Under the pieces are notes generated by a model that saw nothing but the letters and a program-made list of their open reading frames with translations, searched no databases and was not told where the DNA came from. The position numbers and the translations under genes are program-made. From an uncultured Lysobacterales bacterium (GTDB lineage: Bacteria > Pseudomonadota > Gammaproteobacteria > Xanthomonadales > SZUA-36), in assembly GCA_937927755.1 (NCBI GenBank), contig CALBDB010000178.1, forward strand, positions 1-33,137: DNA of 33,137 nt, given 5' to 3'. Below are positions 15,475 through 31,679 of the stretch, piece after piece (the stretch's first letter is position 1; every line of letters begins with the position of its first letter).

Positions 15475-16620
15475 ATGACTGAAATTTCCAACGCAAAAAT
15501 TCAAATCAAAAAGGTTTCCGGCAAACAGGCGCTCAATGCATTTATCCGGGTTCCCTGGCGTATTTACAAAAACGATCCCAACTGGATTGCGCCACTGGTT
15601 TCCGAGCGCAAGGGGGCCTTTTCACCCAAACATCCGTTTTTCAAACACGCAGCCTGGCGCGCCTGGGTAGCCGAACGTGACGGCACGCCGGTAGGGCGCA
15701 TATCAGCACAGGTAGACCAACTACACCTTCAACAACATGGCAACAATACCGGGTTTTTCGGGCTGATCGAGTCACCGGATGACGATGAGGTCTTCTCGGC
15801 ACTATTTGAAACTGCAGAAAGCTGGCTTCGCGAACAGGGCATGGAACGGGTTACAGGGCCTTTCAACCTGAACATCAACCAGGAAATCGGCCTCCTGGTC
15901 GAAGGTTCTGACTCTCCACCCTATATCATGACCGGGCATGCACCCGCCTACTACGGCCCGGCCATTGAACGATGCGGCTACCAACCGGTTCAGGACCTTC
16001 TCGCCTATGAACTTGATTCCGGCTCGCTGAGAATCCCCAGGATCATGCAGGCCCTGATCGACCGCAGCGGTGACCGAATCAAGGTCAGAAACCTGGATCG
16101 GAAGAACAGCGGTGCCGAACTTGAAGTCATGCGGGACATTTTCAATGACGCCTGGAAAAACAACTGGAATTTTGTGCCATTTACCCGTGACGAATTCAAT
16201 GCCATTGGCAAAGAACTGTTAATGATCGTTCCACCTGATTTCATCCAGATTGCCGAAATCGATGGTGAAGACTCCGCTTTTATCGTCCTGCTGCCAAATA
16301 TCAACGAGGTAATCGCCGACCTGAACGGCCGGCTGTTGCCAATTGGCTGGGCCAAGCTCCTGTGGCGTCTGAAGGTGAAATTCCCCAAGTCAGGCAGGGT
16401 GCCACTGATGGGGGTCAGGGAGAAATACCAGAACACCCGCTTTGGCCCGGCACTCGCCTACATGACCATCAAGGGCGTAATCGATGCAGGCAAGGCCCGG
16501 GGATTGGAACGCGTGGAAATGTCCTGGATTCTTGACCACAACCACGGTGTCAGGAACATCATTGAAAGCGTGGGCGGCGACATAACCAAACGCTATCGCA
16601 TGTACGAAAAAGACCTGTAG
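15475..16620 (+). CDS. GNAT-fold acyltransferase, probable bacterial ceramide synthase
   Basis: A 381-residue soluble protein of the GNAT-like family often annotated only as N-acetyltransferase. Typical features are the N-terminal IRVPWRIYKNDPNWIAPL at 24-41, FFKHAAWRAWVAERDGTPVGRI, the central GPFNLNINQEIGLLVEG, and a C-terminal half with WKNNWNFVPFTRDEF and VEMSWILDHNHGVRNIIESVGG. The N-acyltransferase that makes (oxidised) ceramide in Caulobacter is a GNAT-superfamily protein of this general type. The presence of serine palmitoyltransferase, ACP, reductase and acyl ligase genes 11-16 kb downstream makes that role likely here. The sequence shows the fold; the ceramide synthase assignment is inference from context. 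It sits between the tandem glycosyltransferase and a MobA-like gene on the same strand. Confidence 0.68.
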   Translation: MTEISNAKIQIKKVSGKQALNAFIRVPWRIYKNDPNWIAPLVSERKGAFSPKHPFFKHAAWRAWVAERDGTPVGRISAQVDQLHLQQHGNNTGFFGLIESPDDDEVFSALFETAESWLREQGMERVTGPFNLNINQEIGLLVEGSDSPPYIMTGHAPAYYGPAIERCGYQPVQDLLAYELDSGSLRIPRIMQALIDRSGDRIKVRNLDRKNSGAELEVMRDIFNDAWKNNWNFVPFTRDEFNAIGKELLMIVPPDFIQIAEIDGEDSAFIVLLPNINEVIADLNGRLLPIGWAKLLWRLKVKFPKSGRVPLMGVREKYQNTRFGPALAYMTIKGVIDAGKARGLERVEMSWILDHNHGVRNIIESVGGDITKRYRMYEKDL

Positions 16621-16647
16621 TGAAGACCACGCCAAGCAGAATCCGTA

Positions 16648-17472
16648 GTGTCTGAACAAGCGATAAAATTTCGAACGGTCGTGCTTGCAGGTGAACGTCC
16701 GGGCGGCAACGCGCTGAGCCATGCCTTCAATATCCCGGCCAGTGTCATGGTCCCTGTTGCCGGAAAGCTGGCACTGGCACACGTGATTCAGGCAATAGCT
16801 GACAGCCGGGAAGCCCATGGCGGGATCATCTGCGGCCCTGCGGCCGATATCGTTGAAACCACCCCTGAACTGAAATCCCTGTTGCAGACTTCCGGTCACC
16901 AATGGCTGGAGCAAGCCACGGGACCTGCCGCCAGTGCTATATCGGCCCTGGAAAAACTCAACCACTACCCTGCCCTGTTGACCGCCGGTGACCATGCCCT
17001 GCTCACGGGCGAAATTATTGACGACTTCTGCGGGCAGGCACTGACACATACCCCGACAAGGCATTCAGGATACGATCTTGTAGTCGGATTCGTGCCCTTC
17101 AAACTGGTGAATGCGGCCTGGGCTGACAGCAAACGAACCGTCCTGAAGTTTGCCGACGGCGGGTTTTGCGGGAGTAACCTGTTTGCCGTTCTTAGCCCTG
17201 AAGGCCTCAAGGCACTTGCCTTTTGGCGCCAGGCGGAAGCCGACCGGAAACAGCCCTGGCGGATAGCGCGTCGTTTTGGTTTTGTTGCCCTGTTGCGGTA
17301 TCTGTTCAGACGGCTGACGCTGGAAGATGCAATGCGGTCATTATCGGCCGCTGCGGGTTGCCGGATCGGATATGTCGAGGTGAAATTTGCCCGGGCTGCT
17401 GTTGATGTTGATTCAGTTGAGGATCAGCGGTTGGCTGAGCGGATCTTATCTTCCAAAACACAACGGAGTTAA
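16648..17472 (+). CDS. MobA-like nucleotidyltransferase-fold protein
   Basis: A 274-residue protein of the MobA-like NTP transferase superfamily. The N-terminus has the nucleotide-loop signature VVLAGERPGGNALSHAF (11-27) and VPVAGK at 35-40, with later ALLTAGDHALLTGEII corresponding to the metal-binding aspartate segment. In the family form I know, a lysine follows the first loop, a few residues before PVAG; here that position is Ser (IPASVMVPVAG), so nucleotidyl transfer may be altered. The start is GTG at 16648, 27 bases after the acyltransferase stop; no upstream ATG fits. The C-terminal half (WRIARRFGFVALLRYLF onward) is basic and amphipathic and could touch the membrane. A role in lipid headgroup synthesis is inferred only from neighbours. 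Confidence 0.7.
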   Translation: MSEQAIKFRTVVLAGERPGGNALSHAFNIPASVMVPVAGKLALAHVIQAIADSREAHGGIICGPAADIVETTPELKSLLQTSGHQWLEQATGPAASAISALEKLNHYPALLTAGDHALLTGEIIDDFCGQALTHTPTRHSGYDLVVGFVPFKLVNAAWADSKRTVLKFADGGFCGSNLFAVLSPEGLKALAFWRQAEADRKQPWRIARRFGFVALLRYLFRRLTLEDAMRSLSAAAGCRIGYVEVKFARAAVDVDSVEDQRLAERILSSKTQRS

Positions 17473-17501
17473 GCTTCCTTGTAGGATTCTGTAAGGCCGT
17501 T

Positions 17502-17598: not shown

Positions 17599-17662
17599 TC
17601 ACAAGCAATTACCCTGCCCGTGGTGCGCGGCCTCGCACACCCCCTTTAAACGCCCAGAAAAA

Positions 17663-19267
17663 CTACCTATCAAACAAGCTATTCAAATGCACCCCAAGCC
17701 GATGCGTCAGAGCCAGCAAGGTAAGCGTAGGATTAGCCCACCCCCCTGTTGGAAATACCGAGCTGCCAGCAATGTGAAGGTTGTGGTAACCATGCACGGT
17801 GCAGTTGGCATCCACCACACCCTCTCTGGGGGATGTGCTCATACGAGTAGTCCCCATGTGGTGATAACCGCCGATGGGGTGATTGCCGACGCTGATATCG
17901 ACCGGCCAGTCCGGTTTGCCGTCTTCCAGCCATTCGTATGTTGTTACCTTACCGAGGCCAAGCCGGTCAAACTCCTGTTGCAGGGTTTTGCCAAATTGCA
18001 GCATGGTTTCCTTGTCCAGGGCGCTCAACCGCCAGTCAAGGTCAGCGCGCTGGCACCCCAGGGCATCCTTATCGGCGGACAGGCGCACCCGGCTATCGGG
18101 ATTCGGGGCCTGTTCAGCCCTTGCGATTACATACAATCCCATGCGGTTCAGCTTGACGCCGAATCGTAGCAGCGGCATGGAAACATGGCGCTGTAGCCAG
18201 TCCTGGCTGCCTCTCCATGTTTGCCAAAGACGGCGGCCTGATTTGGTTGGCGACAAGGCATGTTTAATATTCAGGTATGCCTTCTTGCTCAGTGTTGCGC
18301 CATTGGCCGGGTCTTTCTGAAGCTTGAAAGTTGCCGCACTGTTCAAAACACCCAGGCGCTTTTGCTGCGATGGCGGCAATACCAGCGCTGGCGCTACCGG
18401 TGTATCTGTTTCCGGATAACGCTTGCGATACAGGGCCCAGAAATGTGCGGGGTCCTGTGTCTCAATATGGGCGATTCTGCCGTGCGGGTGTTCCATGAAG
18501 TAGCGGCCCAACTGGTCATAATGGTTGCCGAGCCCGTCAGGTTCCACGTCGTTGGACAACATAAGCAACCTGGCATTTTCTATCGCACCGCATGCCAACA
18601 CGAAATGTTGGGCTTTCACCTGCAATTTCCTGCCCTGCATGGATTCGGCATCCAGATGTGTGATGCCCGTTGCGTTTTCACTGGCCCGTAGACCGGTGGT
18701 GTTTGCGTGCAGCACGATGCGTACGTTTTCCGAGTTGACCAGGTCGTCGCTGCGCCGGTGGTTGAAACGTTCGGCCAGGTTGTCAAAGCGCCAGAAGCGC
18801 GTGGTAATTTTGTCAGGATCAAAGCCTATTGGGTTTAGCTGCAGTTTCTCCCAGATGCCCTGCTCGTAATCAAACTCGCCCAACTCGAGTGAATCGTGTG
18901 CGATTCGGTAATATGGCTGCAGTTCATCCAGGGTGATCGGCCATCCGCTATGCGGAACCCAATCTCGTTTTTCAAAGTCTATCGGGTCCAGGGGAACACT
19001 GCGCCCACCCCAGATATTCGTTGTTCCGCCAAAAAAACGTAACCGGGAATGATCGAGATCATAGTATTCCATACCCACGTTTCTGCCTTCGAACAATGAC
19101 TGTGTGTCTTCTTCGTAATCCATCCCGCCGGCTTCCAGGAGTACTACGTCACGTCCTGCATTCATAAGGTCCCTGGCCAATGCAACACCCGCCGCACCGG
19201 CGCCGACGACACAGATTCCCCCCTCCAGATGAACGTCATGGGTGGACTTTTGAAGATCGATTAACAT
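17663..19267 (-). CDS. GMC-family FAD-dependent oxidoreductase
   Basis: A 534-residue flavoprotein of the glucose-methanol-choline oxidoreductase family, which oxidises alcohol groups. The dinucleotide-binding motif VGAGAAG is at 21-27 and is followed by VVLLEAGG. FFGGTTNIWGGRSVPLDP marks the flavin region, and LACGAIENARLLMLS the second FAD segment. The C-terminal substrate domain has GGYHHMGTTRMS, HIAGSSVFPTGGWANPTLTLLALTHRLG, with the histidine and asparagine positions expected at the active site. No signal peptide is evident. It faces away from the nucleotidylyltransferase at 19455 and shares the 19268-19454 spacer with it. Substrate is unknown; oxidation of a lipid or headgroup hydroxyl is one possibility given the context. 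Confidence 0.85.
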   Translation of the reverse strand: MLIDLQKSTHDVHLEGGICVVGAGAAGVALARDLMNAGRDVVLLEAGGMDYEEDTQSLFEGRNVGMEYYDLDHSRLRFFGGTTNIWGGRSVPLDPIDFEKRDWVPHSGWPITLDELQPYYRIAHDSLELGEFDYEQGIWEKLQLNPIGFDPDKITTRFWRFDNLAERFNHRRSDDLVNSENVRIVLHANTTGLRASENATGITHLDAESMQGRKLQVKAQHFVLACGAIENARLLMLSNDVEPDGLGNHYDQLGRYFMEHPHGRIAHIETQDPAHFWALYRKRYPETDTPVAPALVLPPSQQKRLGVLNSAATFKLQKDPANGATLSKKAYLNIKHALSPTKSGRRLWQTWRGSQDWLQRHVSMPLLRFGVKLNRMGLYVIARAEQAPNPDSRVRLSADKDALGCQRADLDWRLSALDKETMLQFGKTLQQEFDRLGLGKVTTYEWLEDGKPDWPVDISVGNHPIGGYHHMGTTRMSTSPREGVVDANCTVHGYHNLHIAGSSVFPTGGWANPTLTLLALTHRLGVHLNSLFDR

Positions 19268-19386: not shown

Positions 19387-19414
19387 TTGCAGATCTCTGA
19401 AATCATGTTCTAAT
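19387..19414 (+). promoter_or_regulatory. Weak candidate promoter for the 19455 gene
   Basis: In the divergent spacer 19268-19454, TTGCAG at 19387-19392 and TCTAAT at 19409-19414 are separated by 16 bases. The -10 matches five of six consensus positions and the -35 three of six. It would start transcription about 35 bases before the TTG start codon at 19455. Confidence 0.25.
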
Positions 19415-19454
19415 GCGCACGTTCTTGCAGCAGATACTGCAAAAAGGAGTTTTT

Positions 19455-20183
19455 TTGAAAGCCATAATACTAGCTGCAGGCCAGGGCCGCCGATTGCTTC
19501 CGTTGACTTCGAACCTGGCCAAATGCTGTTTGCCGCTTCATGGTCGTTCGATTCTCGAGTGGCAATTGAGCCAGATTGCAAAGTGTGACATCGACGAGGT
19601 CATAGTGGTTACCGGGTTTGCATACGAGATGGTCGATGCCATCGTAGACAAGGTCAAAGGCCTGAATGTGCGGACCTTGCACAACCCCATGTACGCCCAC
19701 ACCGACAACCTTGGTACCTGCTGGGAAGCGCGCTCTGAAATGGACGGGCCATTTGTGCTGATGAATGGCGATACGCTGTTCGAGGCCAGGGTCCTGCAAC
19801 AATTGCTCGCTTGTGACAAGGGTTATCCCGTCACCATTGCCACCGACACAAAAGCCCATTTTGATCTCGATGACATGAAAGTCATCACCGACGGTGACAG
19901 GTTGCTGAAAGTGAGCAAGCAACTGGACATACACCTTGTCAGTGGTGAGAGTATCGGCCTGATGGTATTCAACCAGGCCGGTGCGGATGCATTCACACAA
20001 AAACTCGAAGAGATGATGGACAAGCCAGATGCTCTCAAGCTCTGGTATCTGTCTGCAATCGACCAGCTTGCCAGCGAGGGAATTGCTGGTGTCTGCTCGA
20101 TTCACGGTATGAGTTGGTGTGAAGTCGACGATGCATCTGACTTTGCCGCGGCAGCCGATGTCGTAAATAAATGGCCGGAGTAA
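19455..20183 (+). CDS. Sugar/polyol-phosphate nucleotidylyltransferase (LicC/IPCT-like)
   Basis: A 242-residue nucleotidylyltransferase that activates a phosphorylated small alcohol or sugar. The N-terminus KAIILAAGQGRRLLPLTSNLAKCCLP holds the nucleotide-binding GxGxR-type loop and catalytic-type lysine (Lys22). MNGDTLF supplies the metal-binding aspartate, and WCEVDDASDF the second acidic site. Overall pattern is nearest to choline-phosphate (LicC) and inositol-1-phosphate cytidylyltransferases rather than hexose-1-phosphate enzymes; this is judged by eye. The start is a TTG at 19455, chosen because AAAAAGGAG ends five bases upstream and translation then begins exactly at the conserved domain; an ATG at 19413 would add 14 residues. 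It probably makes the CDP-alcohol for the phosphotransferase at 23953, which is inference. Confidence 0.8.
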   Translation: MKAIILAAGQGRRLLPLTSNLAKCCLPLHGRSILEWQLSQIAKCDIDEVIVVTGFAYEMVDAIVDKVKGLNVRTLHNPMYAHTDNLGTCWEARSEMDGPFVLMNGDTLFEARVLQQLLACDKGYPVTIATDTKAHFDLDDMKVITDGDRLLKVSKQLDIHLVSGESIGLMVFNQAGADAFTQKLEEMMDKPDALKLWYLSAIDQLASEGIAGVCSIHGMSWCEVDDASDFAAAADVVNKWPE

Positions 20184-20206: not shown

Positions 20207-20701
20207 TCAGTCGACCGGCGCAACCTCGATCAAGACACCATCTTCTCCACCGGCCTGGTATCGTTCCGTTTCGATATCGTATTCGATCACCATGCTTCGA
20301 ATTACCTCGTCTTCCAGTTTCAGCGTGGCACCACCGGATAGCTTCAAAAGGCTGGTGGAACGCTGATACTCGATCTCCGGAGCCGTAGCCTCGAAAGTGC
20401 CCTGCCCTCCGTCCTTATCCCGGGTGATCAGGAACCTGGCTGGTGAACCCTCAAGATAGACTTTATCCGGTCTGTCCGGCTTGCCGTAAACGGTTGCCTG
20501 CCCGGATTCCAGCCTCCAATAGTGTGTCTGCATGATGAAATGACCTTTGAAATGAAGCACGCCGGGCTGTATATCCTCGCTGGCTTCATCCGCAGATATG
20601 CTGATTGTTCCCAGGCCAACATCATCTGCCGGTGACGCCATTACAGGCAAAAGCACCAGCAAATACAATACTGACAGGCACCAAAGCCCCGCTTTTAACA
20701 T
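20207..20701 (-). CDS. LptA/OstA-like periplasmic protein (second LptA-type gene)
   Basis: A 164-residue secreted protein distinct from the LptA at 6639. It has a signal peptide (LWCLSVLYLLVLLPVMASPADD) followed by one OstA-type domain. The series ISISADEASEDIQPGVLHFKGHF, ATVYGKPDRPDKVYLEG, ATAPEIEYQRSTSLLKLSGGATLKLEDEVIRS and IEYDIETERYQAGG gives the repeated strand-turn pattern of LptA/LptC. It is divergent from lptF, with a 104-base shared upstream region, so the two may be co-regulated. Length fits an LptA protein without the C-terminal tail. It could be a paralogue for LPS or for another lipid. Fold assignment is fairly firm; the cargo is unknown. Confidence 0.75.
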   Translation of the reverse strand: MLKAGLWCLSVLYLLVLLPVMASPADDVGLGTISISADEASEDIQPGVLHFKGHFIMQTHYWRLESGQATVYGKPDRPDKVYLEGSPARFLITRDKDGGQGTFEATAPEIEYQRSTSLLKLSGGATLKLEDEVIRSMVIEYDIETERYQAGGEDGVLIEVAPVD

Positions 20702-20770
20702 TTCAATCTCTTAATGCCCGTTAACACTATGCAGATACCCGGTGTTGCACTTTCGCTCATTTACCAAGGG

Positions 20771-20776
20771 TATACT
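20771..20776 (+). promoter_or_regulatory. -10-like hexamer ahead of lptF
   Basis: TATACT at 20771-20776 lies in the 104-base divergent spacer between the LptA-like gene and lptF. A TTGCAC at 20745-20750 is 20 bases away, too far for a normal pair. The hexamer alone supports this call. Confidence 0.25.
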
Positions 20777-20805
20777 ACGCGCAGTACGTCTTGCCTTACA
20801 AAAAT

Positions 20806-21891
20806 ATGGCCACAAACAAGATCATCGATCAATACCTGATCCGGGAAATCGTGCATCCATTGCTTGCGATTTGCACCGCCCTGGTGATCATATTTATTAC
20901 TTACAGTTTGAGTCGTTTCCTGGTCGATGCCGATGCAGGGCTGCTACAGCCTATGGATGTGGCACGTCTGACTTTTCTGAAATCTATAATTTCGCTGGAT
21001 GTATTGTTACCGCTCAGCGTGTTTCTGGCTGTTATGACCGGTCTGGGACGTCTGTATACCGACTCCGAAATTTATGCCATGCGTGCCAGTGGTATCAGTG
21101 AGGCGCACCTGTTACGTCCGTTGATGCGTCTGACGCTGGTTTTGGCCATCAGCGTAGCCCTGCTGTCTACCGTGGCACGGCCGTGGGCTTATACACAGTC
21201 CTATTCAATCAGGGCCGCGGCGGAGGCCTCAGCCGAGACCGGACGAATCCGGGAATCCAGGTTTTATAGTTTTGGTGAAAGCGAACGTACCGTATTTATT
21301 GAGCACATTGCTGAAAACGGCAGTGACCTGGATGGGATTTTTGTCCGCACCCGCAAGGGTGATGATTTGCAGGTCATAACCGCTGCCAAGGGGTTCTTTG
21401 AGTACTTTGCCAACCCCGATTTTCACCGGCTACTGCTCACAGATGCACGGGTATTCAAGAAGGTACAGGAAGGAACGGACCTCTCAGCCCTGTTTGGTAA
21501 ATTTACTATCTGGCTCCCGGTTGAAAACCCAAAGACCCCTGGTTTCAAGGTCAAAGCGGCCTCAACCTGGTTATTGAGACACTCCGACAACCCCATTGAG
21601 CGGGCGGAGTTTCAATGGCGTCTGTCCACTCCCGTTTCGATGCTGCTTCTGGCGATGGCTGCTATCCCGTTGAGCCGTAGCCGCCCCCGGCAGGGGCGAT
21701 ATGCAAAGATGCTGGTGGCGCTGGTAATTTATGCCGTTTATTTCAATCTGCTTGATGTTAGCCGCAGCTGGGTGGAACAAGGCAGTAGCACCCAAATCTG
21801 GTGGGTTCCCAGCCTGCTGGCACTATTGGTTGCGGCCTTGTATTTACCTGTAGTTCTCAGGAAGCGAAAGGACCGGCGTGCTCAGGGTTGA
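20806..21891 (+). CDS. lptF: LPS export permease LptF
   Basis: One of the two membrane subunits of the LptB2FG extractor. The 361-residue protein has the YjgP/YjgQ layout: two helices, the GLGRLYTDSEIYAMRASGIS coupling-helix segment that contacts LptB, a third and fourth membrane helix region, a periplasmic beta-jellyroll (about 130-260), and C-terminal helices with RWRLSTPVS-like and PLSRSRPRQGRYAKML. The latter (PLS.. PRQGR) is diagnostic for LptF. ATG at 20806 fits the family N-terminus (NKIIDQYLIREIVHPLLA); TTG at 20791 is an in-frame alternative. No strong ribosome-binding site is seen. It overlaps lptG by 14 bases. Unlike E. coli, no pepA is adjacent; neighbours are lipid-headgroup genes. 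Confidence 0.92.
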   Translation: MATNKIIDQYLIREIVHPLLAICTALVIIFITYSLSRFLVDADAGLLQPMDVARLTFLKSIISLDVLLPLSVFLAVMTGLGRLYTDSEIYAMRASGISEAHLLRPLMRLTLVLAISVALLSTVARPWAYTQSYSIRAAAEASAETGRIRESRFYSFGESERTVFIEHIAENGSDLDGIFVRTRKGDDLQVITAAKGFFEYFANPDFHRLLLTDARVFKKVQEGTDLSALFGKFTIWLPVENPKTPGFKVKAASTWLLRHSDNPIERAEFQWRLSTPVSMLLLAMAAIPLSRSRPRQGRYAKMLVALVIYAVYFNLLDVSRSWVEQGSSTQIWWVPSLLALLVAALYLPVVLRKRKDRRAQG

Positions 21892-22951
21892 CCGGTACAT
21901 CATGCAGCGCTTCCTGATCGGGATTATCCCGGCATTGTTGTTATTGCTGGCTTTATTCAGTTTTATGGCGCTTGCCGAAGAATTGGAAGATGTGGGCAAA
22001 GGGAGTTTTACACTCCCCGACGCACTGATGGTGGTATTCCTGACAACACCCAAACGCATCGTGGAACTGCTGCCGGTCACCGCACTACTGGGAGGATTGC
22101 TTGGACTGGGAGCAATGGCAAACAATCTTGAGCTGATTGCCATTCGAGCAGCAGGAATATCAAAGCGACGCATAGGGCAGACCGTTGCCGTTTTGGCGCT
22201 GTTCCTTTGTGTACTTATTACCGTTTTGCAGTTCTCAGTAGTGCCCGGGTTTGAACGTGAAGCTGCCACATTACGTGGTCAGGCCCTGCAAAGTACTGAT
22301 ACCGGATTTGGAGACACACAAGCGTTCTGGACTCGAAATGAAAAGCAGTTTATTCGCGTTAATAGTGTCGAGTCCGGCCAAACCCTGACGGGCATAGAAA
22401 TCTACCTCATCGATGCACAAGGCCGCCTGACCGAGTTAATCCAGGCATCCAGCGCGTACTATGCCGGAGGTGAAGACTGGCTGTTAACCAATGTGCTTGA
22501 AAGCAGGTTCAGGCAGGCACAGGTCGTTGAGACCAGGCTGGATAACATGCAGTGGGACCAGTTGTTATCCGCTGAACAGGCTTCTGTACTGATACTTCCA
22601 CTTGAGGCACTGGCGCCAAATGATCTGGTTAAAACCATCAAAAACCTCAAACGCAACCAACTAGATACCCACCAATATGAGATCGTGTTCTGGCAGCAAG
22701 TAAGCCTGTTACCCGGATTGCTGGCCATGGCGCTGATGTCACTACCCTTCCTGCTGGGATCGGTGCGTGCTGTTTCTGCCGGCCAACGGGCCATGATCGG
22801 TGGTCTGATTGGAATTGGTTTTTATCTTCTGCAACAGTTGAGTGGACAACTTGCCGGTATTTTCGGGCTTAACCCCGCCCTGGTAATCCTTTTACCGCCA
22901 TTCCTGCTTCTTGCCATTGCAATAGCTGCGATACGTCACCGCAACCTATAA
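21878..22951 (+). CDS. lptG: LPS export permease LptG
   Basis: Second membrane subunit of LptB2FG, 357 residues. It shows the LptG-type start (VDRYIMQRFLIGIIPALLLL), TTPKRIVELLPVTALLGGLLGLG with the coupling segment NNLELIAIRAAGISKRRIG, a periplasmic jellyroll, and C-terminal helices with EIVFWQQVSLLPGLLAMALMSLPFLLGSVR. The GTG start at 21878 lies 14 bases inside lptF and has AAAGGA about six bases upstream; ATG at 21902 would trim the conserved VDRYI and is less likely. The 3' end faces the metallophosphoesterase gene with a 9-base gap. Confidence 0.92.
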   Translation: MLRVDRYIMQRFLIGIIPALLLLLALFSFMALAEELEDVGKGSFTLPDALMVVFLTTPKRIVELLPVTALLGGLLGLGAMANNLELIAIRAAGISKRRIGQTVAVLALFLCVLITVLQFSVVPGFEREAATLRGQALQSTDTGFGDTQAFWTRNEKQFIRVNSVESGQTLTGIEIYLIDAQGRLTELIQASSAYYAGGEDWLLTNVLESRFRQAQVVETRLDNMQWDQLLSAEQASVLILPLEALAPNDLVKTIKNLKRNQLDTHQYEIVFWQQVSLLPGLLAMALMSLPFLLGSVRAVSAGQRAMIGGLIGIGFYLLQQLSGQLAGIFGLNPALVILLPPFLLLAIAIAAIRHRNL

Positions 22952-23839: not shown

Positions 23840-23952
23840 TAAACCGGCACCCCGGCTTTGCCGCTTCTTACCACACTGTCTATAATCCAAGCATTCATCA
23901 AAACCTTAAGCCAACCGGCCCTTCTCAACTGTAGCCCGAGTCGCAATATAGC

Positions 23953-25176
23953 ATGACCATTTACGCGCTTGTTTCTGAAAATTCAACGGTTCGGTTATGG
24001 GGACTGGATTCCGGCCAACGCCTGCAGCGGCAACTGAGGGCAATCGGCAAGGACAAGCCGGATCAATTCAGCGGTATTCGCTGGCTGAGAAATGCCGGTG
24101 ATGCTCCCGCCAGCGCTCGCGTCCTGTTGCTCAATGGGTCCTTCCTGTTTGAAAACCGCACACTCAACGGCGTGCTGGAGAGTGACAATTCCATCCTGTT
24201 ACACAACGATGGCTCTGCTGCCGCGGCCTTTGTAGACGCCAGCCGTGTTCGCGAAACACTTGAGTACATGCAGACCCCCGACCGGGTTTTTCCGCAAGGC
24301 CTGCAAACGGTTCACACGAGTGATATGGAAGCATTTGACGAGAGCCTGCGGCGGTCGACCAGGCCTTTGCTGGAGCCGGTCAGCACCGGGCGAAAGACCG
24401 AACTCGAAAACCGCCTGTACGGCAATGCCTACCGGGGCATTACAGACCTGGTGACAAAGTTTGCCTGGCCGAAGCCCGCAAAACGCGTGGTGCACCTGTG
24501 CGCCGACCTGCATATTTCCCCGAACATGGTGACCAGCCTGGGATTATTGCTGGTCGTGGCCGCCTGCTACCTGTTCCTTCAGGGCCAGTATGGCTGGGGT
24601 TTACTGGCCGGCTGGATAATGACCTTTCTCGATACGGTCGACGGAAAACTTGCGCGCGTTACGATCCAGTCGAGCAAATTCGGCCACCTGTACGATCATG
24701 CAATTGACCTGTTCCATCCACCGTTCTGGTACATCTATTGGGGGATGTCGCTGGTGAATTTCCAACCGGTCCTCGGTATGGAATTAGGGCAGATGTACTG
24801 GATAATCGCCATTGGCTACATTGCCGGGCGTGTTGTTGAAGGTCTGTTCCCATTGCTGGGGAACTGCAGTATTTTTACCTGGCGGCCTTTTGACGCCTGG
24901 TTCAGGCTGGTTACTGCCCGGCGCAACCCCTGCCTGATCTTATTGACGCTAAGTCTTCTTATAGGCAGGCCGGACTGGGGATTTATTGCCGTAACACTCT
25001 GGACTGCCTTGACGACTTTCATTCTTATTCTGCGGCTGATCCAGGCATTTTTTGTCAGGCTGACAGGCGGGCCGCTGGTTTCATGGCTGAGTGAAGAAAA
25101 TGTCGCAAGCGGCCCGCATGCTTATTCTTACTCCATCTTCGGTGCGACCCGGGGGGCATATGCACGGCGAAGGTGA
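23953..25176 (+). CDS. CDP-alcohol phosphatidyltransferase with degenerate nucleotidyltransferase-like N-domain
   Basis: A 407-residue membrane protein. Residues 227-252 contain the complete CDP-alcohol phosphotransferase signature: D227, D230, G231, A234, R235, G244, D248 and D252 at the exact family spacing. About six hydrophobic helices surround it. The first ~145 residues form a soluble domain with LWGLDSGQRLQRQLRAIG and RVLLLNGSFLF, reminiscent of a nucleotidyltransferase core that has lost its P-loop. This two-part layout recalls the fused IPCT/DIPP synthases that make phosphoinositol-type headgroups. The stand-alone nucleotidylyltransferase at 19455 may supply the missing activity. It overlaps the next gene by about 17 bases. 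The acceptor (ceramide, diacylglycerol or an inositol phosphate) cannot be read from sequence. Confidence 0.85.
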   Translation: MTIYALVSENSTVRLWGLDSGQRLQRQLRAIGKDKPDQFSGIRWLRNAGDAPASARVLLLNGSFLFENRTLNGVLESDNSILLHNDGSAAAAFVDASRVRETLEYMQTPDRVFPQGLQTVHTSDMEAFDESLRRSTRPLLEPVSTGRKTELENRLYGNAYRGITDLVTKFAWPKPAKRVVHLCADLHISPNMVTSLGLLLVVAACYLFLQGQYGWGLLAGWIMTFLDTVDGKLARVTIQSSKFGHLYDHAIDLFHPPFWYIYWGMSLVNFQPVLGMELGQMYWIIAIGYIAGRVVEGLFPLLGNCSIFTWRPFDAWFRLVTARRNPCLILLTLSLLIGRPDWGFIAVTLWTALTTFILILRLIQAFFVRLTGGPLVSWLSEENVASGPHAYSYSIFGATRGAYARRR

Positions 25177-26131
25177 ATCACAGCAACCGGAAAACCGGAC
25201 AGTGACCGGGAGTGAGGGATTCCACGGGGAACCGTCACAGGATGCGGGTCTTGAACCGTTGCTTGAAGAGATCAGGAACAAGCACGGTGAAGCCTTGCTG
25301 GCCATCCTAGTTTATGGGTCCTGGCTGCGCGGCAAACGCGACACCATGCTCGACTTTTACGTATTGGTGGAAGACTACCGGACGCTCGATTCAGCCTGGC
25401 AAGGCTGGATGTGCCGCGCGCTGCCACCCAATGTTTACCACATTCACCAACAAGCCGATGATGCTGATCTGCAGGGCCACAGCCTTAGGGCCAAGTACGC
25501 TGTGTTGACCTTAAGCCGGTTTCATCACGCCATGCGGCACGATTTTCATTCCTACTTCTGGGCACGCTTTGCACAACCCTGCGAAGTCCTCTATGCCCGT
25601 GACCAGGCAACCCGGGATATCCTCACAAGTGCATTCAACCGTGCCCCGGCCACGTTTGTGCGTCGTGTCCTGCCGGCCATGGAAGACAAGTTCAGCAGCG
25701 GCGATTTGTGGGCACGGGGTTTGTCTCTTACCTACAAAAGCGAGCTGCGCACCGAAAGCAGCAACCGTGGAGAATCCATATACGACTTCAACCCCGGCTA
25801 CTACGACCGTGTTACCAACTCACTTGCATTGGAGAACACGAACTTTTCATATTCAGGGCCTGACAATGTCTATTTCAACCACAGCAGCCGTTTATCCAGG
25901 CGGCTGTCTCCATTGATCTGGTGGGTCCGCCGTGTACAGGGTAAAGTGCTGTCGGTCCTGCGCCTGGGCAAGGCGGCCTTTACATTCAATGAGCCGCTCG
26001 AATACCTTTTGTGGAAGATTGAACGTCACTCCGGGATATTCATCGAACCTACCCAGAGACAACTCGACCACCCGCTGATTTTTGCCTGGCCATTGTTATG
26101 GAAGCTCCGCCGCCGGGGGGCATTTCGCTGA
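25160..26131 (+). CDS. Tam41-like nucleotidyltransferase (possible lipid cytidylyltransferase)
   Basis: A 323-residue protein with an N-terminal nucleotidyltransferase motif ILVYGSWLRGKRDTMLDFYVLVEDY (YGS at 52-54, Asp65). Downstream, KYAVLTLSRF, YFWARFAQPCEVL, and VLPAMEDKFSSGDLWARGLSLTYKSELRTES line up by eye with mitochondrial Tam41, the CTP:phosphatidate cytidylyltransferase that makes CDP-diacylglycerol. Like Tam41 it has a single acidic residue in the LDF strand. The start is uncertain: GTG 25091, ATG 25100, ATG 25118 and ATG 25160 are all in frame; I chose 25160, just before the conserved region and with a GGGGGG upstream. Its stop overlaps the flippase ATG (TGATG). It may activate phosphatidate or ceramide phosphate; this is inference. 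Confidence 0.65.
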   Translation: MHGEGESQQPENRTVTGSEGFHGEPSQDAGLEPLLEEIRNKHGEALLAILVYGSWLRGKRDTMLDFYVLVEDYRTLDSAWQGWMCRALPPNVYHIHQQADDADLQGHSLRAKYAVLTLSRFHHAMRHDFHSYFWARFAQPCEVLYARDQATRDILTSAFNRAPATFVRRVLPAMEDKFSSGDLWARGLSLTYKSELRTESSNRGESIYDFNPGYYDRVTNSLALENTNFSYSGPDNVYFNHSSRLSRRLSPLIWWVRRVQGKVLSVLRLGKAAFTFNEPLEYLLWKIERHSGIFIEPTQRQLDHPLIFAWPLLWKLRRRGAFR

Positions 26132-27408
26132 TGCAGAACGGCGCCGCGGGACGGGTATTGAAAAACTTTGGCGTGGTGCTCCGCGGCCGGGGTATCGCTG
26201 CAATTTTAACCCTTTCTGCGACAGCATTGATGGCCAATGCCCTGACAGCCACCGAGTTTGGGCTCGTCATCCTGCTGCACACCTACGTGCTGGCCGTGCG
26301 TGGAATCCTCAATTTCAGAACTTACGAGGCCATTGTCCGCTTCGGTGTTCCGCTGCATGAAAATGGCGATGACGAGGGGCTCAAAAAGCTGTTTCGTACG
26401 ACAACTTTTATCGACCTGACATCTGCGGTCGCGGCTACTTCGCTGGGTGTCGCTGCGGCATCAATAGCCGGAGGCTTCCTGCACTGGGATGAACAGATGA
26501 TCTCCCTGGCTGGTTTGTACAGCCTCGTTATGCTGACCACCTTCATCAACACGCCAAACGGAATATTACGGCTATACGACCGTTTTGATGCGCTGAGCGT
26601 CTTCTATACAGTAGGTCCAACCGTCCGCATTACCGGTGTACTCCTTGCCTGGTACCTGGATGCAGGAATGCACGTATTCATTGCCGTCTGGGCGGCAGCA
26701 TTTGTTCTGGAAAACTGCTGGCTAATTGCCCGGGGCCGGCTGGAACTCAAAAAGCATATCAGTGGCTCGCTTTGGAAAGGCGCGAAATGGCGGGGTATTG
26801 AATACGCGAACCGTGAATTCCGGCAATTCATCATGGTGGTTTACTGGCAAACGAATATCGATCTGCTGCCAAAACACCTTTCGGTGCTCCTGGCAGGTAA
26901 CCTGCTGGGACCCGCCGCGGCCGGCATGTTCCGCCTGGCACGAGATTTTTCCAGTGTGCTGAGTAAGCCGGCGATGATGTTACGCGAAGTACTTTTCCCG
27001 GACCTGACGCGCATATTGCACACCGAAGCCACCGGCTTTCACGAGCTGGGTTACCGTGCGGTCAAGGTGGCCGGTGCGGCAGGCTTACTGCTGGTCCTGG
27101 TTTCCATACCTGCAGCAGGCCCCATTCTGGGCATTATCGGGCCGGAATACACCGGGGCTTCGACGCTGCTTACGCTGATGCTGCTTGCTGCAACATTTGA
27201 ACTTGCAGGGTCACCCTTACGTGCCGCCGCCTACGCCATGGGCAAGGTCGCCCCGGTACTGCGTATCCACCTGTTGAGCGTTCTTATCTACCTGGGCCTG
27301 TTCTATGTCCTGACACCGGTCATGGGTCTGAGCGGGCCGGGTCTGGCTGCGTGCACGGGCACATTGATGACACTGGTGTTGATGTTCAAACTTGTACGGT
27401 ACAGGTAA
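26131..27408 (+). CDS. MOP-superfamily lipid/oligosaccharide flippase (Wzx-like)
   Basis: A 425-residue polytopic protein with about twelve hydrophobic helices. The N-terminus (LKNFGVVLRGRGIAAILTLSATALMANALTATEFG) and the segments NTPNGILRLYDRFD, KHLSVLLAGNLLGPAAAGMFRLARDFSSVLSKPA and LREVLFPDLTRI are typical of the polysaccharide-transport branch of the MOP superfamily, which flips lipid-linked molecules across the inner membrane. The ATG at 26131 overlaps the preceding stop (TGATG), so translation is coupled to the Tam41-like gene; an ATG at 26098 would lie inside that gene. Together with the CDP-alcohol phosphotransferase this forms a three-gene overlapping unit. The cargo is probably the lipid made by those enzymes, an inference from coupling. 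Confidence 0.82.
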   Translation: MQNGAAGRVLKNFGVVLRGRGIAAILTLSATALMANALTATEFGLVILLHTYVLAVRGILNFRTYEAIVRFGVPLHENGDDEGLKKLFRTTTFIDLTSAVAATSLGVAAASIAGGFLHWDEQMISLAGLYSLVMLTTFINTPNGILRLYDRFDALSVFYTVGPTVRITGVLLAWYLDAGMHVFIAVWAAAFVLENCWLIARGRLELKKHISGSLWKGAKWRGIEYANREFRQFIMVVYWQTNIDLLPKHLSVLLAGNLLGPAAAGMFRLARDFSSVLSKPAMMLREVLFPDLTRILHTEATGFHELGYRAVKVAGAAGLLLVLVSIPAAGPILGIIGPEYTGASTLLTLMLLAATFELAGSPLRAAAYAMGKVAPVLRIHLLSVLIYLGLFYVLTPVMGLSGPGLAACTGTLMTLVLMFKLVRYR

Positions 27409-27428
27409 GTCCACCGCAAAATCACGGT

Positions 27429-28598
27429 TTACAATCTTGCAAATTCTTCAATTATTTTGCTGATCTGTTCCGGTGTGTGCGCGGCGCTAACGCTGCAACG
27501 TAAAAAACTGGCGCCACCGGGCGTCGCAGGCGGAAGCATCATGTTGACGTAAACACCGGCTTCAAGCAGTTTGTTCCAGTCGGCCAGGGCCGTTTCCCGG
27601 TTGCGGCAACGAACGGCTATCACCGGGCTTGCTTCCGGCCCGAGTTCAAACCCAAGCTCCCGCAATCCGCCGTAAAGCTGATTTGCATTCGACCACAACT
27701 TATCTTTCAAGCCAGGTCTTGTGCGTAACTGGTGAAGGGCCTCGCGGGTCGTGGCCACCACCGCCGGACTGGGGGATGCCGTGAACATAAATGGCCGGGA
27801 GACATAGCGGAACAATCCCAGCACATCGTGATGGCTGGCGCAGAACCCACCCATGGCACCCAGGCTTTTACTGAAGGTGCCAACGATAAAATCGACCTTA
27901 TTCAACACGCCCTGCTCTTCGGCAACTCCACAACCACTGGCGCCATAAACACCCAGTGAATGTGCTTCATCAACCAACAGGCTGGCGTTGAATTTCTCCT
28001 TAAGTCGTACGATCTGCGCCAGCGGTGCCCGATCACCCAGTACGCTGTAAACACCTTCAACAACGATAAGGCAACTACCAGTGCGGCCTTCCAGCCGTTC
28101 AAGCCGGCGTTCCAGGCTATGTACATCATTGTGTTTGAACCGGAATATATCCGCGCCGCTCATGCGGCAGCCGTCATAAAGACTTGCGTGCGCATCGGCA
28201 TCCAGCAATACAACATCGCCTTTGCCCAGCAATGCAGTAAGAACACCGAGGTTTGCGGCATAACCCGTGGAAAAGACCATGGCGTTTTCGCAGTGGTAGA
28301 AATCCGCCAGTTCCGCTTCAAGCTTGCCGTGGGTCGAATAACTGCCGTTTGCCATCCGTGAACCGGTGGTTCCTGTGCCGTGTGTCTGCATGGCTTCAAC
28401 GCCGGCTGCAACACAGTCAGGGTCAAAGGTGAGCCCAAGGTAATTATTGGTGCCCGCGAGAATGGTTTCACGTCCTTCAACTACGCCGCGGGTTGCGGTG
28501 TGGATGTTGTCAAAGACTACCGTCGTCGGGTCTTTCCCGGTATCCGCCAAACCTGATTTGAGTTGTTGTACTGCTGTGAATTTATCCAGAAGCGACAT
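27429..28598 (-). CDS. spt: Serine palmitoyltransferase-type alpha-oxoamine synthase
   Basis: PLP enzyme that condenses serine with an activated fatty acid to give 3-ketosphinganine. The 389-residue protein shows the alpha-oxoamine synthase hallmarks: NNYLGLTFDP, GTGTTGSRMANGSYSTHGKLE, the cofactor-stacking histidine in DADAHAS (His137), LLVDEAHSLGVYG (Asp210, His213), and the Schiff-base lysine in GTFSKSLGAMGGF (Lys244). The family also contains KBL, BioF and HemA enzymes. The immediately upstream ACP, plus CerR-type reductase and acyl ligase genes, favour serine palmitoyltransferase, as in the Caulobacter ceramide locus. The ATG at 28598 follows the ACP stop by six bases. Last gene of its operon and convergent with the flippase gene. 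Confidence 0.87.
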   Translation of the reverse strand: MSLLDKFTAVQQLKSGLADTGKDPTTVVFDNIHTATRGVVEGRETILAGTNNYLGLTFDPDCVAAGVEAMQTHGTGTTGSRMANGSYSTHGKLEAELADFYHCENAMVFSTGYAANLGVLTALLGKGDVVLLDADAHASLYDGCRMSGADIFRFKHNDVHSLERRLERLEGRTGSCLIVVEGVYSVLGDRAPLAQIVRLKEKFNASLLVDEAHSLGVYGASGCGVAEEQGVLNKVDFIVGTFSKSLGAMGGFCASHHDVLGLFRYVSRPFMFTASPSPAVVATTREALHQLRTRPGLKDKLWSNANQLYGGLRELGFELGPEASPVIAVRCRNRETALADWNKLLEAGVYVNMMLPPATPGGASFLRCSVSAAHTPEQISKIIEEFARL

Positions 28599-28604
28599 CG
28601 GCGA

Positions 28605-28877
28605 TTATTCCGGTTGTGCAGCGATTACAAAAGATGCCAGGTCCGTGATGGTCTGGATATCGGAAAGACTCTCAAGGTCTATCACGATATCAAAATGGTC
28701 TTCCACCTCCAGCATGAATTCCATCACCTGGAATGAATCCAGCTGCAACTCCGTGACCATATTGGTTGCTGGTGTAATGGTTTGTTTGCTTGACGGCGAG
28801 TCTGCCCAGTTATTTTTAAGGTACTCCGTTAGAATTTCAACAAGATTCTGACCCACTGTTTCGATCGACTTGTTCAA
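28605..28877 (-). CDS. Acyl carrier protein of the ceramide operon
   Basis: A 90-residue carrier protein with the phosphopantetheine attachment serine in ELQLDSFQVMEF (Ser48) and a following acidic helix (LEVEDHFDIVIDLESLSD). It is not the housekeeping AcpP, which carries the GADSLDTVE motif; this form is like the dedicated ACP between reductase and serine palmitoyltransferase genes in bacterial sphingolipid loci. It would carry the acyl chain from the ligase at 29922 to Spt. The start is TTG at 28877 with GGAG seven bases upstream; no ATG is available in the right place. A 110-base spacer separates it from cerR and contains a -10-like TACAAT on the minus strand, so an internal promoter is possible. 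Confidence 0.88.
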   Translation of the reverse strand: MNKSIETVGQNLVEILTEYLKNNWADSPSSKQTITPATNMVTELQLDSFQVMEFMLEVEDHFDIVIDLESLSDIQTITDLASFVIAAQPE

Positions 28878-28987
28878 AAATTATCTCCACCGGCCCGCGG
28901 CCAGGCCAAGGTTGCACAGGACTGGGGATTGTAGCGCAGGATGAGTCTTAGTGCGTTATTTGCACTACAGTTCCGACCGGCCGGCGG

Positions 28988-29920
28988 TCACGGTTCCGTT
29001 GCAAACAGTTGCCGGGCGCCTGTTTTCAGATCCAGCTTCGGCTCCCAGCCCGAAATGGCCGAAAAATCGCTGTTGTCACACAACCACTCAGGATGTGTGA
29101 GTTCGCGTACCTTACCCGGGGTCAACATCGGCGCGTAACCCAGCAGTGTTGAGACCAACATATTTGACCTTGCCGCAATATTCAGCAAAGCGCGGGGCAG
29201 CTTTATCATGCGGAAGTTTCCGTCTTTGACGGCTTCACCGATTGCGGCCCAGTCATACCCGCCGGCTGTGCCATCATCAATGGCAAAGGTCTTTTGGTAG
29301 CAAGGTTGCGGGGCCGATAGCCAGGCTGTTACCGCAGCGGCAAGGTCATCGACGTGCAACAGTGACAAGCGCTGATCCCGCGGCCCGGCGTGTGCAAGCA
29401 AACCGCGACGGATCATCTTCAACAGCGGCAACATTTCTTTATCACCAGGCCCATATACCGCTGGTGGGCGGATTATCGTCCATGGCAGGGAGTTCTTGCC
29501 GAGCAACAGCTGCTCACCCTGGTACTTGCTTCGGGCGTAGTCGGACAGGCCGGGCTGGCTCGCCGCAAGTGATGAAAGCAGCAGCATGGGTGGCGCTTCG
29601 GCAACGCGTCCGAGCGCAGCCAGCATGGCCCCGACACCCTCGACGTTTGCAATAGAAAAATCTGCGGCGCTGCGCCCCCTGACGCTGCCGGCACAATAAA
29701 TGACCGCACTGGATTCCGGTACTATCCCGGCCAGTTTATCAACATCCGTGATATCGACCGGAATCTGTTCAACATGCGGCGGCAGGCGCGTATCGATCTT
29801 GGCATCCGGGCGCACCATTGCCCGCACACGGTAGCCCTGTTCCACCAGCGCGGATACAAGACGTTGCCCGATGAATCCGGTTGCACCGGTAACAAATACG
29901 GATGGAGGTGTCGCCTGCAA
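28988..29920 (-). CDS. cerR: NAD(P)-dependent epimerase/reductase, CerR-like
   Basis: Extended short-chain dehydrogenase of 310 residues. TGATGFIG at 11-18 binds the cofactor, and the catalytic YARSK (Tyr128, Lys132) follows the LLLSSLAAS strand. IIRPPAVYGPGD is the usual later motif. In Caulobacter an enzyme of this class encoded next to spt reduces the 3-keto group of the acylated intermediate to give ceramide. Gene order here (ligase, reductase, ACP, Spt) supports that role. The start is a TTG at 29920, one base after the ligase stop; no ATG or GTG lies between that stop and the conserved core, so the TTG is likely real. Substrate is inferred from context. Confidence 0.82.
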   Translation of the reverse strand: MQATPPSVFVTGATGFIGQRLVSALVEQGYRVRAMVRPDAKIDTRLPPHVEQIPVDITDVDKLAGIVPESSAVIYCAGSVRGRSAADFSIANVEGVGAMLAALGRVAEAPPMLLLSSLAASQPGLSDYARSKYQGEQLLLGKNSLPWTIIRPPAVYGPGDKEMLPLLKMIRRGLLAHAGPRDQRLSLLHVDDLAAAVTAWLSAPQPCYQKTFAIDDGTAGGYDWAAIGEAVKDGNFRMIKLPRALLNIAARSNMLVSTLLGYAPMLTPGKVRELTHPEWLCDNSDFSAISGWEPKLDLKTGARQLFATEP

Positions 29921-29921
29921 A

Positions 29922-31679
29922 TCAGGCTGACTGCTTTTCGCCGGCCTTCGCCGCTGACCGCTCTACACCCTCGAGGGTCTTACGGGCGAGATAGTCCTGC
30001 TTGGACTGGGACCGGGAAAGCTTGCCGGACGACGTTCGTGGTAATGTTCCGCGCGGGGTCAGGTCAATCAGTACATTGATTCCAAAATGGGCGTGTATGG
30101 AGCGGCTGACCTCTTCGATGATGTGCTGACGACTGGCGGGATCTTTCTCCCTGGTTTCAACAACCAGTACCGCCTGTTCTTCCAAACTGCTGCCGGTAAC
30201 GGAAAAAGCGGCCACTCCTCCGAGTTTGACGCCACCGGTGCGCTGGGCCAGTACTTCCAGATCGTACGGCCAGATATTACGCCCCTTGATGATAATGACG
30301 TCCTTGCTACGCGATGTGATGACCAGGTGATTGTCGATCCGGTAGCCGATATCGCCGGTATTTAACCAGCCGTCATCTGTCAGCACCGCGGATGTGGCTT
30401 TATCATCCCGGTAGTAGCCACGCATAACGCTGGGGCCTTTCAGGTAGATATTTCCACAATGACGATTCTCCAGTTCGACACCATTGTCGTCCAGGATCAG
30501 GAACTCAAAACCGGGCAGGAGCTTGCCGCAGTCCACATACTCCGATGTGGAAACAGTGTTTCCATTTGAAGGTCTTGCCTCGCCGGTTTCAGCCATCAGG
30601 ACCCTGTCAACCACGTCGACAGCCAGACCCCGGTCCAGGGGCGCGAAACTGGTAGCCAGCACACACTCCGCCATACCGTAGCAGGCAACAAACGCCTTCT
30701 CGTCAAAACCACTGGCCCGGAGAATATCTGCAAACTCCTGCAAGGGTTCGGGATTGATCCGTTCGGCGCCAACGCAAGCCGCCCGCCACTTGCTGAGATC
30801 GTAAGACTCAACATCCGAGGGCCGCAATCGCCTGGCGCACAGGGCATAACCGAAGGTCGGTGCGGAAGAGATGGTTCCACCATTGTCGGAGAGTAATTTC
30901 AGCCATAGTCTCGGGCGCATTGCGAATGTGCGTGAGCCCAGGTAATCAACGGAAAGCTGGCCGATTAACGGTACAAGGATAAATCCGACGAGGCCCATAT
31001 CATGGTAGAAGGGAAGCCACGAAACGAAACGGTCTGCGGCGGTCAGCTTCAGTCCGTAACGTGCTATTTCCATCAGGTTGTTCAATACGGTTTTTTGCGT
31101 GATTTCAACACCGCGCGGAAAACTTGTGCTGCCTGAGGTGTACTGCAGGTAGGCCGGTTCGTCTTCACCCAGTGGTTCGAATTCGACATCGGCTACTGGC
31201 AAGGCATCAAAATCACCTTGTGTGCCGGCCATCAGCAAATCAAGGCCCTGCACGGCCTCTTCCATAAACTTGGAATGCGTAGCGGGGGCAACCACAACGG
31301 ATGCGCCGCAACTCTTCAACATCCGCCGCACCTGGCCTACGTAAGCGCCATGCGCGCCCAGTTGAATACCCGCGGGCAGTGCAACGGGGATCAGACCAGC
31401 GTACTGGCAGGCAAAGAAGAACCTGTGAAACATGGGGTCGGTTTCAGCAATGATCCCAACCCTTGCGCCGCGTTCACAGCCAAGCCGGATCAGGCGTTGC
31501 GCCAATACCATGGCATCATCGCGCAATTCTGAATAAGACAAGACAGTGGACAAGTGGCCACGTCCATCGTAAAAATTGTACCCGGTCTCGCCCTGGGCGG
31601 CGTACTCAAGAACTTCCACCAGGTTTTTATAACCAGTGACCTTTACGGGCAATTTGTGATTTTTTTGCGTTGGACTCAT
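29922..31679 (-). CDS. Fatty acyl-AMP ligase / acyl-ACP synthetase of the ceramide operon
   Basis: Adenylate-forming enzyme of 585 residues. YTSGSTSFPRG (about 180-190) is the P-loop-like A3 motif. WLPFYHDMGLVGFILVPL is typical of fatty acyl-AMP ligases. WLNTGDIGYRIDNHLVITSRSKDVIIIKGRNIWP carries the A7-A8 hinge, and PRTSSGKLSRSQ the C-terminal catalytic lysine (Lys553). Such ligases load a fatty acid onto a partner ACP, here presumably the carrier at 28605. It is the first gene of the four-gene minus-strand operon. The ATG at 31679 has no strong ribosome-binding site. A homologous activating enzyme is one of the five functions known to be needed for ceramide in Caulobacter. Confidence 0.87.
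   Translation of the reverse strand: MSPTQKNHKLPVKVTGYKNLVEVLEYAAQGETGYNFYDGRGHLSTVLSYSELRDDAMVLAQRLIRLGCERGARVGIIAETDPMFHRFFFACQYAGLIPVALPAGIQLGAHGAYVGQVRRMLKSCGASVVVAPATHSKFMEEAVQGLDLLMAGTQGDFDALPVADVEFEPLGEDEPAYLQYTSGSTSFPRGVEITQKTVLNNLMEIARYGLKLTAADRFVSWLPFYHDMGLVGFILVPLIGQLSVDYLGSRTFAMRPRLWLKLLSDNGGTISSAPTFGYALCARRLRPSDVESYDLSKWRAACVGAERINPEPLQEFADILRASGFDEKAFVACYGMAECVLATSFAPLDRGLAVDVVDRVLMAETGEARPSNGNTVSTSEYVDCGKLLPGFEFLILDDNGVELENRHCGNIYLKGPSVMRGYYRDDKATSAVLTDDGWLNTGDIGYRIDNHLVITSRSKDVIIIKGRNIWPYDLEVLAQRTGGVKLGGVAAFSVTGSSLEEQAVLVVETREKDPASRQHIIEEVSRSIHAHFGINVLIDLTPRGTLPRTSSGKLSRSQSKQDYLARKTLEGVERSAAKAGEKQSA

Follow-up and report, generated by a model that had tools for sequence, protein, structure and literature searches.

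Organization of the locus

The window examined here is a stretch of 33,137 nucleotides comprising the whole of contig C178 (CALBDB010000178.1) of a genome assembly from an uncultured Lysobacterales bacterium (GCA_937927755.1), which is 3.4 Mb in size and 97% complete. Four genes predicted to function in ceramide biosynthesis (aasR, cerR, acpR and spt) reside on the minus strand (31679-27429), where they follow one another in the same orientation, separated by 1, 110 and 6 bases, and a fifth (cerS) begins at position 15475 on the plus strand. Ten further genes lie between cerS and spt, including candidates for head-group attachment, a lipid flippase and a second set of lipopolysaccharide (LPS) transport (Lpt) proteins. 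Taken together, the genes from 15475 to 31679 likely form a phosphosphingolipid island of the same kind as the CC_1168-CC_1152 cluster of Caulobacter crescentus.

The original prediction, which had been made by reading the DNA without database searches, placed ceramide genes at 15475 and at 31679-27429, and a check of the open reading frames found both the coordinates and the frames to be correct. The gene order of the island and its mgtE and tsaB flanks are also found in other assemblies of the genus (L144, L149, L154, L159, L162 and their partner loci). Because five related assemblies show the same order and flanks, a chance arrangement, or a chimaeric or contaminated contig, was ruled out.

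Identity of the ceramide genes

The predicted products of the five ceramide genes, with their supporting matches, are as follows.

15475..16620, plus strand: cerS, bacterial ceramide synthase with a GNAT fold, 381 amino acids (alignment with YghO and alphaproteobacterial cerS; Pfam Acetyltransf_1, 1.4e-5)
27429..28598, minus strand: spt, serine palmitoyltransferase, 389 amino acids (NF047599, 2jg2 alignment, tree)
28605..28877, minus strand: acpR, dedicated acyl carrier protein, 90 amino acids (Pfam PP-binding, 1e-8; DSF attachment motif at residue 47)
28988..29920, minus strand: cerR, ceramide (ketosphinganine) reductase, extended short-chain dehydrogenase/reductase (SDR), 310 amino acids (Pfam Epimerase, 1e-21)
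29922..31679, minus strand: aasR, fatty acyl-AMP ligase, 585 amino acids (NF006624, 701 bits, cut-off 600)

Spt scores 602 bits against the NF047599 serine palmitoyltransferase model (cut-off 500), whereas its scores against the two sister models fall below their own cut-offs (bioF, 338 bits against 426; glycine C-acetyltransferase/KBL, 313 bits against 460). Its alignment with the Sphingomonas serine palmitoyltransferase structure 2jg2 spans the full length (411 bits), and residues H137, D210/H213, T241/K244 and R367 match the His, Asp/His pair, Thr/Lys and Arg positions that we take to be the cofactor and substrate site of that enzyme. In a tree of 49 proteins, Spt falls among gammaproteobacterial Spt representatives, including that of Escherichia coli BL21, and the KBL encoded by the same genome (contig C89), which passes the KBL cut-off, resides on a separate and fully supported branch. 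Spt was thus distinguished from KBL by tree and profile, and from BioF by profile only. Contig L051 carries a Klebsiella pneumoniae label, but the Spt that it encodes falls among those of unclassified gammaproteobacterial assemblies, and the record is probably mislabelled or misbinned.

The original prediction had named clustering of Spt with KBL or BioF as grounds for refutation. Were Spt such a paralogue, the gene cluster would yield no sphingoid base. Spt, KBL and BioF do belong to a single enzyme superfamily and their models cross-hit. However, Spt meets the NCBI equivalog cut-off with the tree and the active site in agreement, the genome already has its own KBL, and spt is linked to acpR, aasR and cerS. 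We therefore reject a BioF or KBL paralogue on the basis of profile scores and tree, and regard it as extremely improbable; the protein is predicted to be a serine palmitoyltransferase.

The best solved relative of AasR is the fatty acyl-adenylate ligase 3pbk (479 bits), and the protein carries YTSGST and WLNTGD motifs; it should charge the dedicated acyl carrier protein, whose gene adjoins spt in related clusters as well. CerR is 39% identical to the SDR of the BL21 cluster and 34-46% identical to those of other alpha- and gammaproteobacterial clusters, and it carries GATGFIG and YARSK motifs. In Caulobacter, Spt and CerS were localised to the cytoplasm and CerR to the periplasm (PMC11087976). 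A simple hydropathy scan of the window's CerR showed neither an obvious signal nor an obvious membrane segment. Over a full-length alignment of approximately 380 amino acids, CerS is 49% identical to E. coli BL21 YghO and 42-50% identical to the cerS products encoded beside alphaproteobacterial spt genes. Full-length similarity and synteny thus assign this GNAT protein to the bacterial ceramide synthase (YghO/CC_1154) family, and not outside that clade as the original prediction had allowed. Its proposal that all five functions that Caulobacter needs to make ceramide are present was borne out by profiles, alignments and motifs, and the rhodobacterial ceramide gene set (aasR, acpR, spt, cerR and cerS) is complete here.

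Head-group genes and flippase

The original prediction had passed over the genes between cerS and spt. The head-group genes and second LptF, LptG and LptA genes located there are more informative about the product than the ceramide genes are. The intervening genes with predicted roles in head-group attachment and flipping, along with one additional oxidoreductase, are listed below.

16648..17472, plus strand: CC_1153-type nucleotidyltransferase, MobA/CofC-like (Pfam NTP_transf_3, 5e-6)
17663..19267, minus strand: GMC-type FAD oxidoreductase (Pfam GMC_oxred_C, 1e-23)
19413..20183, plus strand: cpgD, CTP:phosphoglycerate cytidylyltransferase type (40-44% identity to the gene at the CC_1152 position of alphaproteobacterial clusters)
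22961..23890, minus strand: CC_1158-type metallophosphoesterase (Pfam Metallophos, 7e-14; 32-37% to alphaproteobacterial cluster genes)
23953..25176, plus strand: cpgA, CDP-alcohol phosphotransferase, CC_1159 (Pfam CDP-OH_P_transf, 1.6e-11; 37-41% to alphaproteobacterial cluster genes)
25091..26131, plus strand: cpgC, Tam41-type CTP transferase with a CDP-diacylglycerol synthase fold, CC_1161 (32-37% to alphaproteobacterial cluster genes)
26098..27408, plus strand: MOP/Wzx-type lipid flippase, CC_1166 type (25-30% to the flippase of BL21 and alphaproteobacterial clusters)

Orthologues of CpgA, CpgC, CpgD, the CC_1153 and CC_1158 proteins and the CC_1166 flippase were recognized in the island by comparison with the Caulobacter-like genome G388 and other alphaproteobacteria. 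The CC numbers were assigned through G388 and the gene order described in PMC11324152, and not from the C. crescentus sequence itself. The CC_1153-type gene also follows cerS in alphaproteobacterial clusters (29-39% identity). CpgD carries an LAAGQGRR motif and its best solved relative is the CTP:phosphocholine cytidylyltransferase 1jyk; Caulobacter CpgD has been shown to make CDP-glycerate (PMC12275187). The complete DGxxAR(8)GxxxDxxxD motif is present in CpgA at residue 230, and 7 of 16 flippase family members match Polysacc_synt (best 1e-11). CpgC alone has no Pfam hit, some of its relatives match Tam41, and a profile search of the Protein Data Bank yields a weak Tam41 match (E 0.012). The predicted structure of CpgC matches Tam41 6ig2 best (E 1e-8; template modelling (TM) score 0.42-0.48 by query length). 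The modelled fold is that of Tam41, which agrees with the hint of a CDP-diacylglycerol synthase given for CpgC in PMC11324152. The GMC oxidoreductase was seen only in the clusters of the window's family (66-82% identity), and not in the alphaproteobacterial, BL21 or other gammaproteobacterial clusters examined.

The ceramide kinase CpgB was not found in the window, in the clusters of its family, or in five other gammaproteobacterial loci (L049-L053). In the alphaproteobacterial clusters examined, the CpgB gene adjoins cpgC and cpgA, whereas in the window's family, and likewise in L049-L053, cpgC and cpgA overlap or are immediately adjacent, without an intervening gene. Because CpgB is lacking, the window is not classed as carrying the CPG2 pathway, but only as working like one. 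The genome has one kinase of the diacylglycerol kinase (DAGK) type on contig C185, which is approximately 28% identical to CpgB of G388, resides beside a histidine kinase gene and appears generic. Separately, thymidylate-kinase-like P-loop genes (L163 29889-32258 and L234 15243-15974) adjoin enterobacterial spt clusters in which CpgB was likewise not seen, and these might be ceramide kinase substitutes.

A second set of Lpt genes

The window carries two sets of Lpt genes.

20207..20701, minus strand: lptA2, second LptA-like periplasmic bridge protein (Pfam LptD_N/LptA, 4e-10)
20791..21891, plus strand: lptF2, second LptF permease (Pfam LptF_LptG, 1.5e-59; tree)
21878..22951, plus strand: lptG2, second LptG permease (Pfam LptF_LptG, 3e-64; tree)
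4575..7962, plus strand: canonical LPS genes kdsD, kdsC, lptC, lptA and lptB, context outside the island (Pfam LptC 9e-31, LptA 1e-18; kdsD, kdsC and lptB by inspection)

The kds and lpt genes reported by the original prediction are indeed present, but it had mixed two sets, of which that at 6089-7962 belongs to LPS and that at 20207-22951 to the sphingolipid cluster. The LPS genes start at 4575 (kdsD), 5562 (kdsC), 6089 (lptC), 6639 (lptA) and 7207 (lptB). Because these genes reside in the window and LpxC and LptD are present in the genome, the cell is predicted to make probably both LPS and a sphingolipid.

LptA2 matches LptA 2r19 by profile (6e-13), and its structural model, which has a predicted local distance difference test score of 85, matches the fold of LptA 2r1a with TM scores of 0.70/0.83. 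The genome has only two LptA-like genes and four LptF/LptG genes, arranged as two pairs, one of which is in the island. The other pair, on contig C147, is the LPS pair and resides beside pepA and valS, as does the LPS pair of E. coli. In trees built by a quick method with Shimodaira-Hasegawa-like approximate likelihood ratio test (SH-aLRT) support, LptF2 and LptG2 each fall with their spt-linked counterparts from BL21 and further gammaproteobacteria and with the sole LptF/LptG pair of genome G140 (SH-aLRT 98-99), apart from the LPS-type pairs of the genome itself and of its family.

The number of LptF/LptG genes varies with the presence of spt. Within the window's family, four such genes are present in the spt-positive members tested and two in each of two spt-negative members. 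Among other spt-positive Pseudomonadota with LpxC, 7 of 8 have four or five. An LptF/LptG pair is kept by 25 of 26 spt-positive Pseudomonadota that lack LpxC (exactly two genes in 24), and this pair lies within approximately 15 kb of spt in 15 of these genomes and, in one more (G140), in a cluster containing cerS and head-group genes, such that 16 of the 25 have it within or close to sphingolipid genes. The tally was made by hand and the genomes are related, with 18 of the 26 LpxC-less representatives from one family, such that the counts show an association, and the genomes do not amount to independent tests of it. The second LptF/LptG pair is thus associated with spt and not with LPS.

G140 is a closed genome of 3.7 Mb that carries spt and belongs to the same GTDB class, Gammaproteobacteria, which includes the former Betaproteobacteria. 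No LpxC match was found in G140, and its sole LptF/LptG pair (L229 4589-12116; with L135/L136) resides in a cluster with CpgC, DAGK, CpgA, CC_1153-type and CerS genes. This organism possibly has an LPS-less, sphingolipid-based outer membrane.

Proposed pathway and alternative explanations

The most likely role of the island is to make an anionic phosphosphingolipid and export it. Given the gene identities, the reactions follow from characterised homologues (PMC11324152, PMC12275187, PMC9386255), and we infer the precise structure of the head group and the function in export. AasR would place a fatty acid on AcpR, from which Spt would join it with serine to yield 3-ketosphinganine. CpgA, CpgC and CpgD, together with the CC_1153-type transferase and the phosphoesterase, would use CDP-activated precursors to attach one or two phosphoglycerate-like groups, and the Wzx-type flippase would flip the resulting lipid. 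LptF2 and LptG2, with their own LptA2 and with shared LptB, LptC and LptD, would then carry it to the outer membrane beside LPS.

Several points weigh against this scheme. Without CpgB in the window or in related family clusters, the first step of head-group attachment lacks an assigned enzyme, and the Caulobacter scheme offers no role for the GMC oxidoreductase. Neither LptC2 nor LptD2 was found in the genome, where LptC (that for LPS) and LptD are single copy and therefore would have to be shared by both routes. A direct demonstration of export by LptF2 and LptG2 was not found in the literature for any organism, and the only proposal found there of an Lpt route for sphingolipids is that in PMC11324152.

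The missing kinase and the presence of the GMC oxidoreductase lead to an alternative, to which we assign somewhat less than an even chance, in which the product does not arise through the Caulobacter CPG route. CpgA may join a CDP-activated alcohol directly to ceramide without a kinase, as choline phosphotransferases do when acting on diacylglycerol, and a different head group may result. For example, CpgA could pass phosphoglycerate from CpgD-made CDP-glycerate straight to ceramide, without a ceramide-1-phosphate intermediate. The direct juxtaposition of cpgC and cpgA in the window's family and in L049-L053, unlike in alphaproteobacterial clusters, is consistent with this alternative, as is the conservation of the GMC gene in family clusters only. 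However, the retention of CpgA, CpgC, CpgD and the CC_1153-type protein fits a phosphoglycerate product, and the generic DAGK on contig C185 could provide the kinase activity.

A further alternative concerns export. Ceramide might be made while LptF2, LptG2 and LptA2 serve LPS or another glycolipid, with the sphingolipid reaching the outer membrane by other means. The LPS genes in the same window and the necessary sharing of single-copy LptC and LptD are compatible with such an arrangement, as are two spt-positive genomes, G403, which lacks a second LptF/LptG pair, and G177, in which neither LpxC nor LptF/LptG was matched. Against this, LptF2 and LptG2 form their own branch with spt-linked copies, the LptF/LptG count follows spt within the family, and LpxC-less genomes retain a pair that is often linked to spt. 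We therefore consider service to LPS or another glycolipid unlikely, though not negligibly so. Export of the phosphosphingolipid by the island's own Lpt proteins can be extended to a more specific proposal, which we offer tentatively and regard, as a whole, as less likely than not: the family would operate two parallel Lpt machines with LptB, LptC and LptD in common. One would serve LPS, and the other, built from LptF2, LptG2 and LptA2, would serve a phosphosphingolipid that acquires its head group with no ceramide kinase involved.

The travel of bacterial sphingolipids from the inner to the outer membrane has been stated to be unknown (PMC11324152), and the LptF/LptG counts give this transport question a clear shape. 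A dedicated LptA-like bridge suggests that two lipids may use separate bridges in one cell, and the island is a natural case of head-group genes without a known ceramide kinase. The island also adds to the gammaproteobacteria in which an outer membrane of both LPS and sphingolipid is to be expected.

Neighbouring genes and variation among related clusters

One gene upstream of cerS is of uncertain membership in the island.

12910..15402, plus strand: double GT4 glycosyltransferase (Pfam Glyco_trans_1_4, 1e-20)

Its 830-amino-acid product has two glycosyltransferase halves and could glycosylate ceramide, possibly yielding a glycosphingolipid. The gene adjoins cerS in several members of the genus, but is not at that place in G006 (L159). 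Among related clusters, two (L162 9070-11547 and L054 5380-7815) have an additional TonB-dependent-receptor-like gene that separates lptA2 from cpgD. The cluster of G014 (L156 8187-17122) is enlarged with sulfotransferase-like genes, second CC_1153-type and phosphoesterase copies, a UDP-sugar dehydrogenase-like gene, and a homologue of the CC_1167-like CDP-glycerol glycerophosphotransferase (Pfam 9e-7).

Comparison with known systems

The aasR-cerR-acpR-spt block of the window is common to the Caulobacter cluster (PMC11324152, PMC12275187, PMC10331486), compared via G388. Both also share cerS followed by the CC_1153 gene, CpgA, CpgC, CpgD, the phosphoesterase, the flippase and a second LptF/LptG pair. 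However, gene order differs, and the window lacks CpgB, the CC_1167 gene and LptC2 while carrying LptA2 and the GMC oxidoreductase.

The yghO-aasR-cerR-acpR-spt-lptGF region of E. coli BL21(DE3) (PMC9386255) resembles the window in having the five ceramide genes, a second LptF/LptG pair and a flippase in an LPS-bearing gammaproteobacterium. Unlike the window, it has no match to CpgA, CpgC, CpgD or LptA2, and instead carries genes for a YtfJ protein and thymidylate-kinase-like proteins. In Pseudomonas luteola and Azotobacter vinelandii, according to the main text of PMC11324152, and on the Pseudomonas plasmid pPNP1, ceramide, head-group and LptF/LptG genes reside in one region, as in the window. 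The same main text reports no CC_1166 flippase or CC_1158 orthologue for A. vinelandii and P. luteola, whereas the window has homologues of both. The pPNP1 cluster differs in retaining an acylglycerol (ceramide-type) kinase and in carrying an Asp/Asn hydroxylase. Genes of this LpxO-like hydroxylase family occur within several sphingolipid clusters (L050 19557-20330, Pfam 1e-49; L049 11107-11859; L052 19581-20357; and pPNP1, L233 930-1697), and the encoded protein is a candidate ceramide fatty-acid 2-hydroxylase. Plasmid-borne sphingolipid clusters with LptF/LptG were found on pPNP1 (L233) and on a conjugative IncFIB plasmid of Klebsiella michiganensis (L234), such that one of the two is flanked on both sides by IS5 copies and one is on a conjugative plasmid. 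A close Spt is encoded by 23 plasmid records in all.

The novelty that the original prediction attached to ceramide genes in a gammaproteobacterium was overstated, because BL21 carries the same five genes, its Spt and AcpR/AasR have been assayed (PMC9386255), and contiguous clusters are described for A. vinelandii and P. luteola in the main text of PMC11324152. The gammaproteobacterial ceramide set, its contiguous clusters and the idea of phosphosphingolipid export by LptC2, LptF2 and LptG2 are thus already published (PMC9386255, PMC11324152). The available passages of a metagenomic study of sediment sphingolipids (PMC12619533) do not name the present lineage. The present analysis adds a lineage that carries LptA2 instead of LptC2, lacks CpgB and has a GMC oxidoreductase, together with the comparative count of LptF2 and LptG2.

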